NCBI GenBank assembly: GCA_032358255.1 | Contig: JAULBX010003333.1 | Location: 1-64,000 of the forward strand | Direction: 5' to 3' | Origin: Heterotrichella gracilis | Lineage: Eukaryota; Sar; Xanthophyceae; Tribonematales; Xanthonemataceae | DNA length: 64,000 nucleotides | Part shown: piece after piece, positions 19,383 to 37,957 of the stretch | Layout: the number at the start of each line of letters is the position of its first letter | How positions within the stretch are numbered: position 1 is the stretch's first letter | Notes under the pieces: generated by a model | What the model was told of the DNA's origin: nothing | The model's input: only the letters and a program-made list of their open reading frames with translations | The model's database searches: none | Position numbers and translations under genes: made by a program

Positions 19383-20462
19383 GGTGAGCCTTGTCCAGTG
19401 ATTGTTGCAAGACTCAGGCAACAAGGCACCTATCATAAGTTGAGAAGAATCTTCGCATTAACGCTGCTGTGCAAGCAATCCCAGAAGAACCGCCGAGAGT
19501 CGTTGAGCCTGCTCTCAAAGGTTGCCCAATATGCATGCATGCATTGTGGCATAGGACAGCTGGCACTGCCGACTCAGTGCATGTCTGGTTTACAACAGAG
19601 GAAGCGACTTAGTTGCACGTTATCGCTGCCGACAGGTTGCAGCCCCACCCTGTATGTTCCACCTGGCCGTGCACTGCCACGTTTTGTTTAGCCACGTTTC
19701 GTTGACTCCGGAGGGTTTTGGACATGCACCAGAAACCCTATCGATGGCGGGATCCGAAACTGGGCGATGCCATCGATGTGATCACTGATGCTGACGCGGA
19801 GTGTTCACATACTCTGAAAGCATCGTCTGCAATCTGTATCTTTGGTTGGGGTGGGAAGAAGTTGACTCTGTGGGCTGTCCTTAAAGCCCTTGTAGTAGTG
19901 CTAACAGCTGCTCATTGGCGATTGAATTGCAGAGCCCACAATTGCAAGGTGTGAAAAACCTAGTGCTACCACCTCCGTGACCAAAATATTGCACCCTTGA
20001 AGCGCTTCACGGTCAACAGCGTCGTTCTTATCACCATGTACTTGATGCAACGCCATGCTTGCCGGGCCATCGGTCCCAAGGTTTCTTCTGGAGTCCCCGC
20101 TCGTGGTGGTGGTGCATGCACACATGTACAGCGACCGGCGACCATACGACTGCCAGGGCATGCCGCCAGCAACAGTCTCAGACCATGCGCAGCAAAGGGA
20201 GCGACGGTGCTCTGTGCCTTGCCAAAAAGGAGGGGCTTTAGCTATGACCCAACCGTGCCAGAAAAGCGCTGCGTGAAAGCAGGTGCAGCCAGTGCAGCTA
20301 CCTCCCACAGTGCCATTAGCCGGTACGAGGAAGTCGCATCGAGACTCTGCTTGCTTGTCTCTTCCCTGCGGATGGGTGCCTCCAACCACTGCTTGCATAT
20401 GTGTCGGTTTTGTATAGGAGCGGTTTTGCCTGTGTGTCCACTGTGTCGCGCCTGCAAGACAT
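19383..20462. promoter_or_regulatory. Shared upstream region of the sugar-dehydrogenase-like and AlkB-like genes
   Basis: The region separates the two start codons of a head-to-head pair and should carry both promoters. A missing 5' exon of the AlkB-like gene could lie here. TGCATGCA palindromes occur at about 19530-19545 and 20463-20475. No TATA box near either start is convincing. Confidence 0.4.
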
Positions 20463-23400
20463 GTGCATGCATGCATGTGCAGGTCCGAAACCTCCCCCCT
20501 TGCCGAGACGTGGCTGGGCAACGTATTTACGACACTCTTCCCTGGGCATTGGCGCTACCTTGCCAGCTACCTGCTGCCGTTTTCCGCTTTCCTGGCGGCA
20601 TTTGGCGCGGCGTATGGTCCACAGGTGGTGTGCAACGCAGCAACAGTTGTACAGCCCTGGCTTCCCCAGGTAAGCACCCTTATCCTCCCTTCGCCACTTT
20701 GGGCAAGGAGATTTCAGGGCATTTCTGCAACGCCAGCTCCAGCACCTGTCATTTGTGTGAATCCAATTGCCCTCATATTGAACCATGTCCGATGTATGCC
20801 CTGTGCATGTCAGTGTACCACGGGTGCCGCCACTCTCACCAGCATTGTTCCACGCCATACACCTGCCAATCCCTTGTCTTACCACTAGCATGCCGCTCCT
20901 CAGCTCATCACCAAGCAGTCCCACCAAAACCACCCGCCCCGCCACCCTCCCCTTCAACCTCCACACTAACGCGCCACCCTTTGGGACCCTCCCCCTCCCT
21001 CCAGGTATCCGCCAAGCTGCTGGCCACCTTCTCCCAGCCTGGCCCAGCAGCCACCATGCTGAGCGTGGCGCTGTCCTTCTCCGGTGCCTGGTTCTCGTTC
21101 ATAATACTCCCCCTGATGGACGTGCTGCTGGGGAGGGACCTGCAAAACCCCACCCAGGTGAGGAGGGTGGGCTGGGTGGGTGATGTAAAGCACATTTGTG
21201 GCTGTATGGTGGGGGCTGTTGGTCATGTGGTGGGGATTGTAGCCCATGTATGGGGATTCTGCGGGGCCGCGTGACATCTTAACCGTAAGGGTGTCACTCG
21301 CACTGTTACTCGCAATGTCTGCTCATAAGTGCATGAAAGAAAGAAAACTAGGAAGCGCGCAAATTTGGGTCTGTGCTGCGTATGATTTAATGCACAGGCA
21401 TCCAATAGTAAAACAAGATGCGCATATGTGTTGGGCATGAGTGCATTATGCAATGCAGAGTGCATTTAATGCGCTCTGCATTGCATTATGCATACATTGC
21501 GCCACTGATGTGCACATCATGGTTTAATATTGGACGCCTGCACAAGCAATTGCCCTAGATATAAACACACTGGGTCACAGCAATGCAATGTCCATCAACA
21601 CCTGTCCATCCAAGTTCAGCCCCCAAATGCGCCATCCATAGCCAGGGGTGCTGCCTCCCCTCCGTGCCATCCTCCACCCCCTCCCCACCTCCTGCAGGCC
21701 TCCACAGGTGGTGCGGGTGGCGTTGACCCGCACCGCTCCCTGCTCTACACCTACGTGGTGGTGCACTGGCTGGTGCTGGGGGCGGCGTGTCACCTGGTGG
21801 CCAGCACTGCGCTGCACCCACTGGCCTTCGTAGGTGGGTGTAGGGTTTATAATTACAGGGTTTATGTGAGACCCTAAACTCGAAAACCGTAAACCCTAAA
21901 CCACGCCTCTTTGCCTGTGGGTTGTCTATTCACATAGAAAGCTCGCACGAACATCATTTGTGAGTGCGCATACGCACATAAAATGAGGGGCTTTACACAT
22001 GGTTCTTGAAATAGCCATGTCCTATCTGGCATTGTGCCGTCAGAAAATGCTCGTATGCACATTTTGGTGATGGGTCATATGTACACCTTGTGAGGTACTG
22101 GTGTTCACGGGCATGCACCTGCATGCTACAGGCGTTGCCATCAGCCTGGGGTCAGAGGGCGGCCTCGTGTTCACCGCCGCTCACGAGCTGCTGCACTCGC
22201 GCAAGCCCCTGGAGGCCACGCTGTCCAGCTGCCTGCTTGCATCGGTGGGCAGCATGCACTGGGGCTACGCACACCTGGCGCACCACGTCAATGTGAGCAA
22301 CGTGGAACCCTAAACCTTGAACAACATAATTCCGTTTAGAGTCTAGGGTTTCAGGCCAGGCTGCACAAGTTCACATGGTGCTCGTAGCCCCAACGGGCTC
22401 ACAATATCGAGCCTGGCCCTCCATGTGACTTCATGTGATGTATGTGCAGTCTGAAATTCTCCCAGAGGGCGGCATGAATGCTGCCAACGCTTAATACATG
22501 TAAACACCATCCTGTTCTCCCCTGTATGCATGTGTCACACACTGTGATGGAAACTACCAGGCGTTTTGCTCACATCTTACATGGTGACAGATGGGTGCCT
22601 TTGCAGTCCTAAAACTCTCTCCATGTGGCACTGGCAGGTTGCGACGCATGGCGACCCGGCATCGGCTCGCTTGGGTGAGAGCCTGTACACTTTCATCCCC
22701 CGCAGCGTGTTTGGTGGTGTGGTGGATGCAGTGCGCATGGAGGCGGGGAGGGTGAGGGCGCGTGGCGAAGCGCTCCTGTCGCTGCACAACAGGTAATATG
22801 ACCGGGAATAATTACAAATTATTTAAAAAATGACAATCACCCAATAATAATTACAATCATAATTGCAGTTTTGATTACAAGGCTCATGGCGAGGTGCTAC
22901 TGTTGCTGCACAACGGGTAGACCATGTTTGCAGAAACAATGTATGTGTGCCACAGCTGGCTGTCAAGACACTGCCAGGTGTATTTGTTGGGTATTGGGAT
23001 ATCCTGCTCTTGGCAGAGAAACCATCAGGGGCCCTGCACCGCCACATCACACAGGACTGGGGTATATGTCCCGCCAGGTAGCAAGAGAATATGCGGATGT
23101 TTCACGTTCAGACAATTGGTACATACTTCACGAATCTTTCCGCCGGTCTGATGCGCCAGCCAGGTCCCTGCTGCTGCAGCCCCAGGTCCCTGCATCTGTT
23201 CCCACCGGATCCCCTTATTCCCTGCAGGATGATCCACTGGGTTGCCATCCCCTGCGCCCTGCTGGTGGTGGCCACAGGCCTGTGGGGCAAGGCTGTGGCT
23301 GCGTTGCTTGTGCTTCAGGCCATGGTGGCTGTGTTCATGCTGGAGGATGTCAACTACGTGGAGCACTATGGGTTGCTGCGCCGCCAGGGGGCCAATGGAA

Positions 23401-24339
23401 GGTAAGGGTGGGTCCCTAGGGGTTTGCAAGGGTGGACTATGGGCGTCTTGAAGGGTGGAGTCAAAGGCTTTCAGGTAGTATAGGGTTTAGGAGGATGTTA
23501 AGCTGCCCGGAGCTGCTGCAGGGACAGGGGTTGGATGGAAGGCAGGGGTTTCCTTCTGAAGGATGTGCTACAGTCTTAAGTGCACTGCCGTTCCAACATC
23601 AAATTCCCTCCCACAACACCACTGTTAATCTATAACGTGTGTGGGCCCCTTGCAGGCCCGAGCGCGTCGCCCCCCACCACTCTTGGAACGCCAACTGGCT
23701 GTTCACCAATGCAGTGGTGATGCGCCTGCAGCGACACTCGCACCACCACGAGAACGCAACGCTCCCCTACCATGTAAGTGGAACCCAAACCCCCTGGGGA
23801 TCAAATTGCAGGGGTGTCAGGTTCCAGCACTCTGAGGTTACCTTGACAATTGCTGTATGACGATGTGCTGTTTAGGGTCAGAGTTTTAGACTTCCATGAA
23901 GTTTGGGTTGTTGTATGACCATAGGTTTGACTCTCTGTAAGTCATGCATTGTCGCGTCCCCACTCAGCTGGCGTTGGCAATCCTTGTCGACCCAGCAGCA
24001 GATATGATCCCATGCACCAGTGGCCCTCTCAATCAAGCAGGTTGGTTCATACCAGCCTGAGAAAGTGGCGAATTGCCAAGGATGGCAGTTGACCAGTGCA
24101 TGAGGTCCTCTGTGCCAATGACGAGCATTTTTCCAACCGCACGCGCTGCCCAAACCTAACTCAAACCCTAATGTGTGCAGGAGCTGCGCGACCTTCCTGA
24201 GACAGTTGCCCCTCAGCTGCCCGCCTCCTACCCCGCCATGATGCTGCTGGCCACTGTCCCTCCCCTGTTCTTCACGGTGATGAACCCCCTGGCCAAGCAG
24301 GCGCGGCAGCGATACGCGTCAGTGGGGCTGACAGGCTGA
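20463..24339 (+). CDS. AlkB-type alkane 1-monooxygenase (integral-membrane diiron)
   Basis: AlkB enzymes hydroxylate the terminal carbon of alkanes or related chains using a non-haem diiron centre in the membrane, fed by rubredoxin. Eight exons (20463-20669, 21005-21157, 21698-21833, 22132-22292, 22638-22792, 23228-23401, 23656-23773, 24181-24339) give 420 residues, close to the roughly 400 of bacterial AlkB. All histidine boxes are kept: HELLH, HLAHH and LQRHSHHH, plus the family-specific NYVEHYGLLR and the stretch VATHGDPASARLGES. This block set marks AlkB rather than acyl-lipid desaturases. At least five hydrophobic stretches (WRYLASYLLPFSAFLAAFGA and others) fit the membrane topology. Side residues differ from bacteria: HELxHK ends in Ser, EHxxGHH is AHLAHH, and HSDHH is HSHHH. 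The N-terminus is provisional; ATG 20463 is the first in frame, but an upstream coding exon is possible. No rubredoxin gene is present nearby. Confidence 0.9.
21442..21492. repeat. Long imperfect inverted repeat in an intron
   Basis: Arms 21442-21460 and 21474-21492 pair over about 19 bases with one mismatch around a 13-base loop (GCATTATGCAATGCAGAG against CTCTGCATTGCATTATGC). It lies in intron 2 of the AlkB-like gene. It could be a MITE end pair or a simple hairpin. Confidence 0.8.
21841..21902. repeat. Telomere-like words in inverted orientation
   Basis: TAGGGTTTAT and CAGGGTTTAT are followed by ACCCTAAACTC and GTAAACCCTAAACC, so TTTAGGG-like words face each other just after the exon 3 donor of the AlkB-like gene. 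A similar facing pair lies at 22306-22351 in the next intron. Confidence 0.75.
22880..22918 (+). repeat. Echo of the AlkB-like exon 5 end within the following intron
   Basis: GGCGAGGTGCTACTGTTGCTGCACAACG-like sequence closely repeats the last 37 bases of exon 5 (22756-22792, GGCGAAGCGCTCCTGTCGCTGC then ACAACAG). It looks like a partial tandem duplication of an exon end that stayed in the intron. It is preceded by a TTGCAG acceptor-like site, so it may once have been spliced in. Confidence 0.75.
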
Positions 24340-30987: not shown

Positions 30988-33900
30988 TCATCCCTCCCCA
31001 TCCCCATCTTCATCGTCACTCCCTTGCTCGCCATGCCACTGCGCCCCTCTCCCACTGCCACTCGAAGCGGCCGCCACACAGTCTGGCCTCGCACGCAGCT
31101 TCGCAACACAGCGCTGTGCTTCCTTGTGATACCGGGCAGCAGCCTCGCCCTGTGTGGCGGCTGCACCCAGCGACAACACATGGCATATAGTGTGCTGAAT
31201 TCTGCAGAACTGGCTGGGGTCCAATGGAAGCATCATGTGCAGGGCTGACAGCGCCCCTGCTGCCATCTCATCCGCGCCTGCAGGGCCCTTCTTGCGCATG
31301 CTCAGCACATTCTCCACCTGGGGATGGGGATGGCAGTGAATATGGCAGGAATCAATGGTCAGATAAAGACACAGCCATACTCCACACTGCAGTGCACTGG
31401 ACTGTACAAAGGCAAGCTGTAACCAGGCTTTGTAGCGACATTCGAAATTTCGAAATTTCGAAAACAATATTCAAAACGTTTTCCGCCAAACATATAGCGT
31501 GGTAGCAGGGACCTCACATTGCTCGCAAACTGCAACATGACCACTAATCCAAAGTTTGCCCCCCTCCTCGCCACCCTACCTTTTCCCCCTTGCTCAACTT
31601 GCCGAGCGCATCTGCCAGCATGACAGCAGCCACATATAAGTGCTTCATGGCGTCTGGCTCCCTCCCAGCAGCCAACAGCACCTGACCCCATTCCCGCTGA
31701 AGCCATGCATCCTCAGCATCGCCCCGCTGGACCGCATGGATCATGGCCTGGTGGGGCGTGGAGACATGGGAAGAGGTGGAGGGGGAGTCATCGGCCTCCG
31801 CTGCATGGCGGGAACACACAACCAGTCAGCGGAAGAGGGGAATCACTATACTACCTTGGGAATCACGAAAGTATCTCAATAGCGCGTCCACGACAGCATG
31901 AATGCAGGCTCAGTGAGGACATTTTGATAGGATTCCGGTGATGTGTACTGCACAAGCTCGGAGACAGTGGTCAATATTGCACAAATCCAAGGACCATGTC
32001 ATCAAATGTCCCCACCTTTTGTGGCATGCCGGCATGTGTCCCCAGCCTCCCCTATGTACTGGTACACAGCGTGCTTCGTTGCCGGGGCAGTTGGGCCATT
32101 CTCAGAAATGGCAACCAGCACCTGCCACCGCGCCTCAACACAAGTCCTAAGCACATTGATCTCCTCATCACTGAGCCTCAGCTGTTGATATGGTGTCGCA
32201 TTTTGGAGGGATGAGTTTCGCACTGCGCCGGGCCCCAAGGGGATGGGCGGTGGGTCAATGTGGGGATTTGACAGCCTGTCCAAGCAGCGCTGGGTAGCTG
32301 CAGCTGAAGCAGGCAGATCGAGTTTTCGGGGGCTTGTGGCATGCAGCATAGCTGCCTGCTCCAGGGTTGCGCACGCAGCGACGATGCGGTTAAGTTCTGG
32401 AAAGAGCAGCACCCGAGCCCAGCTTTCAAGCGCCAAGGCGTTCATCGGTTGCTCTTGCTGTTGGGCCTGGTATATCTTGTTGAGGGCGAGGATGGCATCT
32501 TTTGCAACATACTTGCAGCTGATGGCCTCCTCAAGCAGGCGAACACCTTCAGCCACCCTGCCCACAAGCCATTGTACCATGCATCAGGGCCAAGCATTGG
32601 TGGATAGTGGCAGCAAATAAATGAGTGCAGCCAATGGCGCACATGATGTGCTGATAACTAGGATTGATGGACGGGTCAAGAAAGTGACATTGTGGGGTAC
32701 AAGGCGCGGTGTACAAAGTTTAAATGCAATTCAGGGTGAGAAGAAGTGGAGGCCATGGCATGGTAAACAGCAACACCAATGAACAGTTGACAGAACTACT
32801 TGTGTGCCATCATGCATGTGTTACCTGCGGCCCTGGTTGACCAAACACAGTCCCCTCCAGTATGTGGGTTCACAGAAGCCTGGCTCAATCTCCTGTGCTC
32901 TCTCAAAGTGCTTCAGAGACGCCCCCCAGCGGCGGTAGCGGCGCTCCAGGATCCCCATGTTCAGGTGCACCTTGGCGCTCCCCTCACACACCTGATTGGG
33001 ACATGCACACCTTGACAGTGAGACTTACAAGCAGAGTGAACCGGCGTTTAAACCAGGCTATGGTGTGGTTCGGAAGCACCAAACGTGATGCGGTGATGCA
33101 AGATGCGATGCGACAGGTTCAGTAAATATTCCCACCGTGCGTTGAAGGAGTGGTTGCATCCTCGATGGATGTAAGCCTATCCCAGACTGCTCACCATGAA
33201 AAAAGCAAGATATAAGGGGTACACCAAAGCCACTGGGTATGGGGGTCATCTGCTCAGCACAAACACTGCACATGGCAGAACATCTATACAGCACTGAACA
33301 CCTGTACAGCCTGTGGCAGAGGGCTATGAGTATGCCATGGCTTCCACCTCCGCACCTGAAGCGCTGCCCTGAAAAGCTCCTCTTCATCCAGCCAATCCCA
33401 GTTGCGATCCCACGTCTTGCAGGTGTACAGGACCCCTAGCGCTGTCACCAGAATCAATCCCAAAAACGCCGACACCCCCCGTGCTCTCCCTTTTTGCCCC
33501 CTGCTGATGCCCCCTGCTATTTTGCCCCCTGCTGATTTGGCCCCTGCTGATGCCCCATTGGTAGGATTCTCCTGTGTTACAGATTCACAGCTAGCCCTCT
33601 TTTCGGATCCATTTTCTGCAGGAACTGCAGTGGGCGAGCTGGGTTTATGTGCCTGCATTTGCTTCTGGGTCAACCTCCGGAATAGGTACCCAAGCATGAG
33701 GCAGTACCCAATGGATGGGAAATACAGCAGGCGCTCCCCTATGAATGTGCCCACATAAAACAGCACATTTGAGGCGGGGAAGAAGGGTCCCACCAGTAGC
33801 CCAGCAGCCACAAACAGAAGCCAGCGTTGGTGCACCTGCAACATGCAAGCGCACAGGTCAGCAAGAGGCGCAAGCTGCCATGGGTACAGCTGACCAGTGC

Positions 33901-36900
33901 TGGTTGAAGAATGATTGGCAAACACATGCTCATCCATTTGTACAGATTTGCGTGATGTCGTGCATTTCTCGTACCCTGGGGTGCTTCTCTGTTCCTGTGG
34001 GACTCTCCAGCATCCCCAGCATCCCCATCACCACCTCCCAGGGCTTCGCTGCCAGGCCAATCCAGATCAAGCTAATGTACAAACCCAGCGTGAGCATGTT
34101 CCGAGGATCTGAAATGGACTCCACCAGGGGGATGCAGTTGAAAGACCAGTCTGCCGACAGGTTCAAGGGGGCAACAAGGAGCCCAAAGTAGCGGGCATGA
34201 AGGTGGCCCATGCTCAGCGTGCGGGTGAGGAAGCTGTCTGAAAAGGGGATGGGGTTTTCTACCTGCAGGGCACACGCAGGTCACCAGGGTTGAGCAACAC
34301 AGACTTGAGGGCATGACTGACAATGGGTGAATGAAAATAAAGGACCTAAGAGAGAGTACACAGGAATAAGAACATATCAACAAGGTAACCCAGACACACC
34401 CTCTGTACACACGAGCCACAAGAAGGTAAAGCAGGGAGACCAATAAACATATTATTTCAATTTTGGCAATCCATTTCTTTAAATGTTGCTTACTTACTCT
34501 TGCATTCGTATACTTACACAATCTAGCAATATAATTAGTTTGAAATTTCAGCCCACCTTCCGGTAGATTGACACCAGTTGGTGAACAGCCAGCCATGAGC
34601 GCACGCGCACGTAGCCAACCAGCACCGCTGCGCAGCACAAAGCCCTCAAGGGTTTCCGCGACTGCCATTTGTGGCCTGGGCGTGAGCGAGCTGCCCCTCC
34701 TTGCCTTCTGCTAATACCCCTCCCCCCTTGCAACATGATGTAAGCATCCCCAGCTGGCGCCAGCAGAATGTCGTACAGCATGAAAGTCCCTAGCTGCAAG
34801 ATCCACATCAACAGTTAGAACCACAGGAAATGAAGCAAACCAACTATTTTTGGGGAGTGCAATAGAGACCAAATCCACATCGGATGTTGCAGTGTCACTG
34901 TATAAAGCAGCAAATTTCAGCCGGCATTGCACATCATCCTGGAAAGGTTCGGCCCAGGCAGGAACAATTCTAGACTGATGCCACTCCATGCAGAACCCAC
35001 CAGGGTAATGCCGATTTCCTTGGCCAACGCTGCCGCAAGCGCCAGCCCAAGGGCAGCAGCAACCATTGTCCAATGCTGTAACCGTTCTCGAAATACCACC
35101 ACGTGCCGCTTGGCAGCCGATGGGGAGTCATCTTCAAGGAACCACGAGTACCTGAAAGGAAGTAAACGCCTCAACAAGCTGTGGTCAAATTGCAATGAAT
35201 AACGCGCTGACAACAAGCTGTGGTCAATTTGCAATGAATGCCCTGAGTTTTTAACTACAGAAACGTCACATGTCACACACATAAAAACGCCCCCAGAATC
35301 CCATCCCGTGTATGCACCACTTCAGTGGACCTGCAATGCAGCGTTTGTGGCTTCATCTGTGAGATGCCACACCCCCAGCCTCCCACCACTGGTGCACCTA
35401 TTGGCAACCTGCGCACGGGGACAGGCGAAACAGCTCTCACCTGTAGTGTGCCGCTGCCATGTACACGAGGAGCGCGGGGATGGACAGCAGCGCGCACAGC
35501 GTCTCAGCGTGGCCCACAATGCCAGCCACCGCCTCGGTGTGGACAGGGTGCAGTGCAAACAGAGCAGCTGTCACAAAGGCGTCCAGTGAAGTGTCGTGTG
35601 GCGGTAGGGCGGACAGCTCGCGCCATTTATGGACAACCTGATAGGAACAGGAGCGATTTGCGCGATTGGGCAAGATTTAACAGGGTGTATGTATTACGGT
35701 TAATTACTGTTGCAATGCTCATTTCCGAGAACAGAACAGGCCCGCAACGCGGGTTAGTCTAACAGGTACCGAATTCTGCACTTGAGTATCTAAATTTAAC
35801 ATGATAAGAATCATTTTAGGCAGGACGATTGGAACTGAGGGCTGCCCCACTGACAACAAGTATATAAATAGAGGTATCCCACATGATCACTCAAAAGCCA
35901 ACCTCTGTGCGCCAGCTACCCTCAGCCCCGCTTGGAGTACTGGCACCTGCGCCATGTGCAGCTGTACGCCCCTTGCGCCGCTGCCGCAGCCCGGCATTCC
36001 TGCCCCCGCTGCTGTCATCTGTCTTGCTGCCATCTGATCCAAAGCTGCCCGAATGCGGCAAGCCTGCGCCCACGCCAGCATTGAGTAACGAGGTATAGCA
36101 TAGTTCCTCACAACAACGGTACCATTGGAGTGCAGCAGCGCAACACCATCCTGGCATTGGTCTATGCACACCAACGTTCCTAAGTGGCACATTACATGCT
36201 GCGTGGTTGCATGCACGAGCTTGGAAACATGTACACGCAACTGCATCAGAATGATAATAATATATAATGGGTGCCCATCGATTTCTTGCCATATTTCCAC
36301 ATGCGCATTGGTGCCAGGCATAGCCTTTTCCTCACCTTGGTTGGTTTCCACCCCTTCCTTGCCTCCTTGCTCCCCTGAGTCCTCCAGCAGAGCAAACAGG
36401 TGGACCGCTAACCTGCACGAGACACAGTATGCATCCCTCACCATGGCCTTCGCCCATACTGCTGCTTATGATCAATCGCGACCATCAGGCCTCAGGCAAC
36501 TACTCAGCAATTAATCGCTATGTACTGCCCCAAAAATGCAGCATGGTTATTTGACGCAAGCTGCAATATAGATTAGCAGGTGACAAACAGCCTGTGAGCA
36601 GCAACACGGCGGCACACAGAGCCCACCCATATTCATGGCACCCCCATCCAACCCTTGATCCCACATGCGCACCGGTACACCAGCACTGTGGTCAGCGCAT
36701 GCGTCAGGATATTCACCACGTGGAACGGCAGAGGGTGCGGGGCTGATGCACTGTGCTCCCTCGCACGGACTTCATCCTCGTCCCGCTTGACAGACAACCT
36801 GCGATGGGAGCCTGCAGGAACAGACAGCCGATGCTTGCCTTGAATCCAGGACATGCATGTGCTTATCTATCCCAGCACTGAATGCACAACGCAAGACATC

Positions 36901-37957
36901 TGATGATAGGGAACATAGGAGTCGCAATATGACTTGGCACCAGCCCCAGGGCAGCGCATTGCCCATGCCCACGGCAAAATTGACCACGTGTAAGGAAGCG
37001 ACGGAGCCGTAGGCGTTGGCCCAAAGTTGCGCACTATGTACTTGAAACCCTTGACACTGCATGTGGAAATGGTGTAGTCTGTCCCCGTACAGTGGGTATT
37101 GGTGGGGGCTTACTAATCCACTCACCCAGCAGCAGTGCGCCCGCCTTGCGCTGAAGCCTGAAGGACAGGACTGTGAAGGGGCGGTACGACTTGTGGCTCT
37201 GGTCTGAGCTGATCCGCTGGCCCCTGCCAGACAAAGCAGTGCAAAAGGTTAGACTGCGTGGCTGGGCGTCAGGGTCCCTTAGTCAGGGGTTGTGCAGGAC
37301 AGGTGCTATCATGACAGTGCTTTGAACAAGACCTATACGAGCTGCAGTACAAAAATGCCCTGTGATTTTGCTTCCCCTAATATGTGGCAAAGCTTATGAG
37401 TGGCTGACCATTTGGGTGTCCTGTGTGGAGTTAAAGTCTCCCCAAACAGGCTAGAAGGAGGCCGCAATGTGCAGCCAGTGATAACGTATATTATAGTTTC
37501 CAGGCAACCCGCTAAAACTACGTGCTTTTATTGGTAGAGTTGCACAGGATCCCGCTTGCATGCACCCATCTTGCGTTTGGATGCAACTGCGTTTTTGCAT
37601 GCACTTTTGCATGCACTTATTTTTGCATGCATGGTGAACTGACCAGAAGTCACTGGTGAAAAGTGCGCTGATGGGCTTGGCGTCGTCGGTGACATCGCCG
37701 TTGTTGATCTGCGCACGCAACGCACTGTCAATACTGCTGCCAGTTGACCGGACGTGCCTATCAGCCTTGTGTGGGTGTTCTGTAGGTGCCCAATGCAAAC
37801 GTGGGCGCTACACCAACCACCGTACCACTGCGAAATTGTCGTCGAAGGTGAATCCCGCCTGCAAGGTGTTGCTGTACACGAGCACAGCTATGCCCGCTAG
37901 CACTATTTGCAGCCACTGCTGGGTAGTCACGCCAGCTGTCCAAGAGTGAGAATGCAT
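30988..37957 (-). CDS. TMTC-type protein: multi-pass membrane O-mannosyltransferase with TPR repeats
   Basis: TMTC proteins are ER membrane proteins that, in animals, O-mannosylate cadherin-type domains. Fifteen exons (37957-37826, 37708-37644, 37223-37126, 36811-36673, 36412-36336, 36063-35903, 35637-35441, 35151-35001, 34793-34557, 34262-33975, 33835-33356, 32991-32825, 32557-32016, 31800-31580, 31317-30988) close at 1094 residues. GT-C family marks are the luminal double Asp in FTFDDNFAV, SYRPFTVLSFRL, FHVVNILTHAL, FALHPVHTEAVAGIVGHAE and AKEIGITL. Residues 420-515 match the TMTC domain (DUF1736): NPIPFSDSFLTRTLS, HARYFGLL, CIPLVES. Later spans include ERLLYFPSIGYCLMLGYL. From about 676, TPR-like helices (VHLNMGILERRYRRWGASLK and others) lead to an acidic tail. 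Algal insertions occur at exons 4-6 and 11. The protein mannosylated here is unknown. Confidence 0.92.
35172..35239. repeat. Tandem duplication, unit 39 bases
   Basis: CAACAAGCTGTGGTCAAATT and following GCAATGAAT at 35172-35200 recur at 35211-35239 with one base changed. The repeat lies in intron 7 of the TMTC-like gene. Confidence 0.85.

Follow-up and report, generated by a model that had tools for sequence, protein, structure and literature searches.

The metal site of the alkane monooxygenase AlkB is described, in the available text of PMC10113152, as consisting of nine histidines and one glutamate. According to the same partial text, Trp55 of the Pseudomonas enzyme (PoAlkB) limits the chain length, and when it was replaced with Ser or Cys, the substrates accepted extended from C10 up to C13 (PMC10113152). 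In the accessible part of the FtAlkB paper, three conserved leucines of the vestibule are reported; tryptophan at two of these positions abolished the activity, while tryptophan at the third had little effect (PMC10110569).

An AlkB has also been ascribed to a green alga, Ulva lactuca, where it is known from the published description of a transcript. As reported in 2022 in the available text, the best match of the transcript was from Chryseobacterium (44%), its level was increased 36-fold with anthracene, and a gene transfer from bacteria was proposed (PMC9530894). The general idea of an algal AlkB is therefore not new, and the suggestion of an overlooked algal family, made in a sequence-only reading of the DNA studied here, has to be softened in the light of that transcript (PMC9530894, available in part). 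In the literature surveyed, no other AlkB was found to be ascribed to algae. A hydrocarbon-consuming enzyme inside an alga was likewise met only as the Ulva lactuca proposal, in a survey that covered hydrocarbon turnover narrowly. The available portion of a paper on the amoeba Willaertia mentions K00496 once.

Compared with the two solved structures of alkane monooxygenases, 8f6t (the Fontimonas thermophila AlkB-rubredoxin fusion) and 8sbb, the algal protein described here likewise has the nine histidines and the glutamate, the NYxEHYG motif, the DPASA..GE stretch, the spacing of histidine box 3 and two substrate leucines. It differs from them by a box 2 that is one residue shorter, by the substitutions E205A, G208A, D351H and G377S together with S181, and by an insert of 27 residues close to the first and second hydrophobic stretches. 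In addition, the algal gene is nuclear and has introns, and no rubredoxin domain was found within its 413 residues.

Gene structure and genomic setting

The gene lies on the plus strand at 20483-24339 of the window, which is the whole stretch of 64,000 nucleotides that was analysed. Its eight exons, when joined, give 413 codons and a stop codon without a frame break. All seven introns are of the GT-AG type, 254-540 bases long, with the phases 0, 0, 1, 0, 2, 2 and 0. The codon scores, determined for each exon with a model derived from the remaining seven (leave-one-out), were between +0.27 and +0.74 per codon. The eight-exon spliced gene proposed in the sequence-only reading was thus borne out by one intact frame and seven GT-AG introns, and the NYVEHYGLLR and ATHGDPASARLGES motifs were both found as claimed.

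The first confirmed exon (20483..20669) encodes residues 1-62 with GT-AG boundaries, an open frame and a codon score of +0.27; according to the hydropathy, it includes the first hydrophobic stretch of the protein, residues 25-44. The second hydrophobic stretch and the gate residue S93 (21095-21097) are encoded by the exon 21005..21157 (residues 63-113), which is followed by the exon 21698..21833 for residues 114-159, with the last codon split. Box 1, HELLH (22182-22196), and the shortened box 2, HLAHH (22272-22286), both lie in the exon 22132..22292, and the ATHGDPASARLGES motif is carried by the exon 22638..22792. The NYVEHYGLLR motif (NYVEHYG at 23352-23372), including Glu309 and His310, was located in the exon 23228..23401. 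Box 3, HSHHH (23735-23749), with the D to H change at residue 351, is encoded by the exon 23656..23773. The last exon (24181..24339), identified by its GT-AG joins and codon score, includes the stop codon. At least two introns of the gene contain short telomere-like stretches (window 21841-21905 and 22310-22350), which we take to resemble the plant telomere repeat CCCTAAA.

The 5' end of the gene is less simple. The earlier reading began at 20463; there is no ATG at that base, and the exon probably starts 20 bases further downstream, at 20483. The first methionine within the 413 confirmed residues is residue 80. The sole in-frame ATG after the preceding upstream stop, at 20475, shortly precedes the likely acceptor, and the stretch 20418-20483 had a non-coding-like codon score of -0.29 per codon. 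Either the translation starts at the ATG at 20475, adding three residues, or else a further upstream exon exists. A weak candidate for such an exon was detected on the plus strand at 20036..20322, with an open frame from an ATG and a phase-2 GT donor. The frame from the ATG at 20036 is rich in Arg, Ala and Ser and reads like a targeting peptide. Its codon score of -0.27, determined over 20036-20320, resembled that of non-coding DNA, and its GC3 was 0.53 compared with 0.79. Due to this codon usage, the open reading frame at 20036 was not accepted and its interpretation as a plastid-targeting exon was dropped.

No second copy of the gene was detected in a search of its own genome (68.5-Mb assembly, 903 contigs), the matches being restricted to the contig of the window. 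With a codon model trained on the AlkB-like gene, 133 segments were picked, including exons of neighbouring genes and many clearly non-gene segments. Ten of the picked segments were scanned with Pfam. Six resulted in matches above the family cut-off (PfkB kinase, calreticulin, citrate synthase, glucose-6-phosphate dehydrogenase, RRM and NTF2), two in matches below it (short-chain dehydrogenase and leucine-rich repeat), and two had no match. The weak short-chain dehydrogenase match, below the cut-off, is 18 kb away from the AlkB-like gene. On the minus strand, at 33725-37201 of the window, exon-like segments of a membrane protein resembling TMTC-type proteins were observed; the one segment scanned there, 35443-35625, had no Pfam match.

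Because of its introns and eukaryotic neighbours, the AlkB-like gene is located on a eukaryotic nuclear contig. A contaminant contig of bacterial origin could be suspected from the relatives found, every one of which was bacterial or came from contigs of a viral collection, and from some desaturase-family open reading frames elsewhere in the assembly that have no interruptions. However, the seven GT-AG introns contradict a bacterial origin, the calreticulin, RRM and NTF2 exons lie within the same window, and contamination is considered next to impossible.

Similarity to AlkB and tree placement

At E ≤ 1, the only solved structures matched by the algal protein were 8f6t (E 1.5e-59) and 8sbb (E 4.1e-55). 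These values are far beyond chance and uphold the earlier assignment to the AlkB type. Over the 413 residues, the only family match was FA_desaturase (PF00487; E 2e-26), and NCBIfam gave no family for the protein. With an AlkB profile built from 146 bacterial rows, the alga being left out, the algal protein scored 345.4 bits, and the lowest of the 146 rows 405.6 bits. The scores of the rows outside the 146 were 276.6 (L180), 253.6 (L026), 176.8 and 165.7 (XylM-type) and 153.5 bits (a Massilia desaturase, L025). By the profile score, the algal protein is thus nearest to AlkB, between the AlkB rows and the next ones.

The sequence-only reading had named an acyl-lipid desaturase as the alternative, and the counter-check ran against it. 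Such a desaturase was ruled out, as the AlkB structures were the sole matches at E ≤ 1 and the open reading frames of at least 150 residues in the desaturase loci of the same genome (L001-L008) scored 20.8 bits or less against the algal protein, compared with up to 226 bits for bacterial AlkBs. The acyl desaturases share the Pfam family PF00487 with the algal protein, but the AlkB profile found none of the open reading frames of L001-L008. In the case of the xylene monooxygenase XylM, the superfamily and the set of histidine boxes are common with the algal protein; however, the identity was 28% and the score 120 bits, against the 226 bits of the best AlkB, and XylM has NYFQHYG in place of NYxEHYG. 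As a separate observation, the loci L001-L007 (contigs C83, C570, C589, C674 and C111) carry uninterrupted desaturase-family open reading frames of 358-374 residues, which may represent bacterial contigs or intronless genes; the genes of the window, in contrast, have introns.

The best 80 bacterial loci kept from the genome scan were 33-43% identical to the algal protein. In draws over three phyla (labelled by the source organisms of the seed loci, with the seed genomes counted), matches at E ≤ 0.001 were obtained in 43 of 296 genomes of Bacteroidota, 63 of 398 of Pseudomonadota and 8 of 294 of Planctomycetota. Among the matches listed in these draws, the highest identity over a long stretch was 44% (259 residues). 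Scanning for close relatives with the algal protein alone yielded two stretches and no relatives in viral_contigs, and 23 stretches and no relatives in genome_contigs. The nine loci obtained from viral_contigs with the alignment all had H-x3-HH in box 2, and no eukaryotic-type copy was seen among them. Algal relatives may well be present in databases already without having been remarked upon.

In a tree of 62 rows, the branch of the alga was long, at 2.31 changes per column, and lay outside a clade of 30 rows, mostly Proteobacteria and Actinobacteria. Nearest to the alga by path were two rows without a name, both of the Bacteroidota-seeded draw, together with Marivirga and Legionella rubrilucens. 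When rooted on XylM, the alga was drawn among the AlkB lineages, but the placement is not firm: in the AU test on the 62-row set, the joining of the alga with XylM was not rejected (p 0.238 with two XylM rows, 0.094 with four), and in a second tree, made without L025, the corresponding values were 0.155 and 0.102. The assignment to AlkB is therefore based on the similarity scores and not on the tree. No donor was named, since the joining of the alga with the 30-row clade was not rejected either (p 0.503). The Massilia protein L025, tried as the sister of the alga on account of its similarly spaced box 2, was set aside: its branch is very long (4.93), and the pairing was neither rejected nor supported (p 0.372).

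Diiron site and substrate path

All ten metal-site residues are kept in the alga (His176, 180, 206, 209, 210, 310, 349, 352, 353 and Glu309), each aligning with a column that is invariant in 146 of the 146 bacterial rows, near-duplicates included. The eight diiron histidines reported earlier are present, but the count has to be raised to nine histidine ligands and the glutamate. NYVEHYG, residues 306-312, fits the NYxEHYG motif.

The main departure was detected in box 2. In AlkB this motif is worded EHNxGHH, whereas H-x2-HH is the box 2 spacing of the acyl desaturases. The alga has AHLAHH, i.e. H-x2-HH, which is one residue short between His206 and His209. The survey of this box started from 180 loci, of which 21 were excluded (the exons of the window itself and the rubredoxin and GMC loci); 158 proteins from the remaining 159 loci were covered, and the box was readable in 151, the other seven being desaturase-family loci of the same genome. 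H-x3-HH, typically EHNxGHH, was found in 150 of the 151 readable relatives. The conservation counts are in part biased, as some of the loci had been selected by their NYxEHYG and box 3 patterns, though not by box 2, and the rows contain near-duplicates. The sole readable relative with H-x2-HH was the Massilia protein. This protein, annotated as 'fatty acid desaturase', is encoded beside mnmH on a Massilia putida plasmid (1390-2499) and has AlkB-like boxes; further plasmid matches are also annotated as fatty acid desaturases.

Further substitutions were found at near-invariant positions. Residue 181 is S in the alga and K, R or Q in all 146 bacterial rows; residue 205 is A instead of the E of 145 rows; and A208, H351 and S377 replace G, D and G, respectively, each conserved in 146/146. 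The histidines and the spacing of box 3 (RHSDHH in AlkB) are kept. The second-shell changes noted earlier, K to S, E/G to A/A and D to H, are thus real (S181, A205, A208, H351). The insert of 27 residues relative to the bacterial AlkB rows occupies positions 45-71. The hydropathy blocks broadly resemble those in three of the bacterial rows, AlkB having six transmembrane helices; an extra C-terminal block at 374-399 was observed in the alga and, at that threshold, in none of the three.

From the shortened box 2, a local re-shaping of the iron site is predicted. Since box 2 and residues 205, 208, 351 and 377 depart from what is found in 145-146 of the 146 AlkB rows, the chemistry could differ. 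A desaturation, or a decarboxylation to an alkene, would agree with the acyl desaturase spacing of the box and with the 'fatty acid desaturase' annotation of its only other holder among the 151. In contrast, the NYxEHYG motif, Glu309 and the box 3 spacing are as in AlkB, and the score of the Massilia protein against the alga was much lower (107 bits). Moreover, the authors of the AlkB structure state, in the available text, that the shape of the helices makes up for varying histidine spacing in the superfamily (PMC10110569); an active metal site is therefore plausible despite the shortened box 2, and a different chemistry of the re-spaced site appears unlikely. The lost residues, invariant in the bacterial rows, and the long branch could also be due to decay of the gene, or the shortened box to an assembly error. 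However, no stop or frameshift was detected, GT-AG borders are kept at all seven introns, a coding bias is present in every exon, the ten ligands are retained, and the loss in box 2 is exactly one codon; a non-functional gene or an error of this kind is considered very unlikely. Because one of the defining AlkB motifs, box 2, fails, the algal protein was filed as a divergent AlkB-like variant, which probably works like AlkB.

By structure alignment, the equivalents of the two activity-critical leucines described in the available FtAlkB text are Leu302 and Leu346, both kept; in AlkB, these two leucines position the terminus of the substrate. Val343 takes the place of the third vestibule leucine, the one at which tryptophan had little effect. 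At position 93, six bacterial rows have an aligned tryptophan and FtAlkB has Ile54, the equivalent of Trp55; the alga has a serine. Judged from this alignment, Ser93 at the chain-length gate points to longer-chain substrates. The shifted substrate hinted at in the sequence-only reading is reasonable, but the stronger clues for it are the shortened box 2 and the gate serine, neither of which had been named there.

Proposed function and possible partners

Candidate partners were detected elsewhere in the assembly; on the contig of the window, the family search gave no rubredoxin or GMC match. GMC-family oxidoreductase genes are present on the contigs C38 and C168 (L123-L127, L129) and C81 (L122, L128). 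Two exon fragments from C168, joined by X letters, matched the fatty acid photodecarboxylase with E 4.4e-37 and 130 bits, the next-best type of protein reaching 57 bits, and the C38 gene reads like that of C168 by inspection. The products of fatty acid photodecarboxylase have chain lengths of C15-C17. Two rubredoxin candidates above the family cut-off were found as exons on C223 and C96; presumably they are of photosynthetic types, which could serve other tasks. Such rubredoxins and the photodecarboxylase homologue make it likely that the DNA is from a green alga, as stated in the sequence-only reading.

The function we propose, with middling confidence, is that of a terminal hydroxylase of long-chain hydrocarbons, of the AlkB diiron type and perhaps acting on photodecarboxylase products. 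In such an enzyme, the two irons would activate O2 and hydroxylate a long-chain aliphatic substrate, bound in a membrane tunnel, at its terminal carbon, with a rubredoxin as the putative electron donor. The likeliest substrates would be the C15-C17 alkanes and alkenes from fatty acid photodecarboxylase, and the reaction would turn the hydrocarbons back into fatty alcohols and acids.

As a possible but doubtful alternative, the protein could hydroxylate fatty acids or lipids at the terminal (omega) position, e.g. to make monomers of wall polymers, instead of oxidising hydrocarbons. The second-shell changes and the insert at 45-71 suggest another substrate, and aliphatic esters are also hydroxylated by AlkB according to the available text of PMC13140642. 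On the other hand, the alga retains both substrate leucines on which the activity depends and has a small residue at the gate, and the genome holds a homologue of a hydrocarbon-making enzyme.

In a wider sense, the hydrocarbon hydroxylase proposed here may mean that some algae oxidise hydrocarbons, for example those they make themselves. Only tentatively, the gene could represent a distinct eukaryotic AlkB-type lineage with a re-spaced diiron box, closing an internal alkane cycle in green algae, in which alkanes made in the light by the photodecarboxylase would be re-oxidised by a rubredoxin-fed monooxygenase. With a nuclear AlkB-like gene and a photodecarboxylase homologue in one genome, hydrocarbon consumption becomes testable in a single organism. 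The natural deletion of one residue, in a site whose nine histidines are all present, is a ready-made test of ligand spacing versus chemistry in the superfamily.
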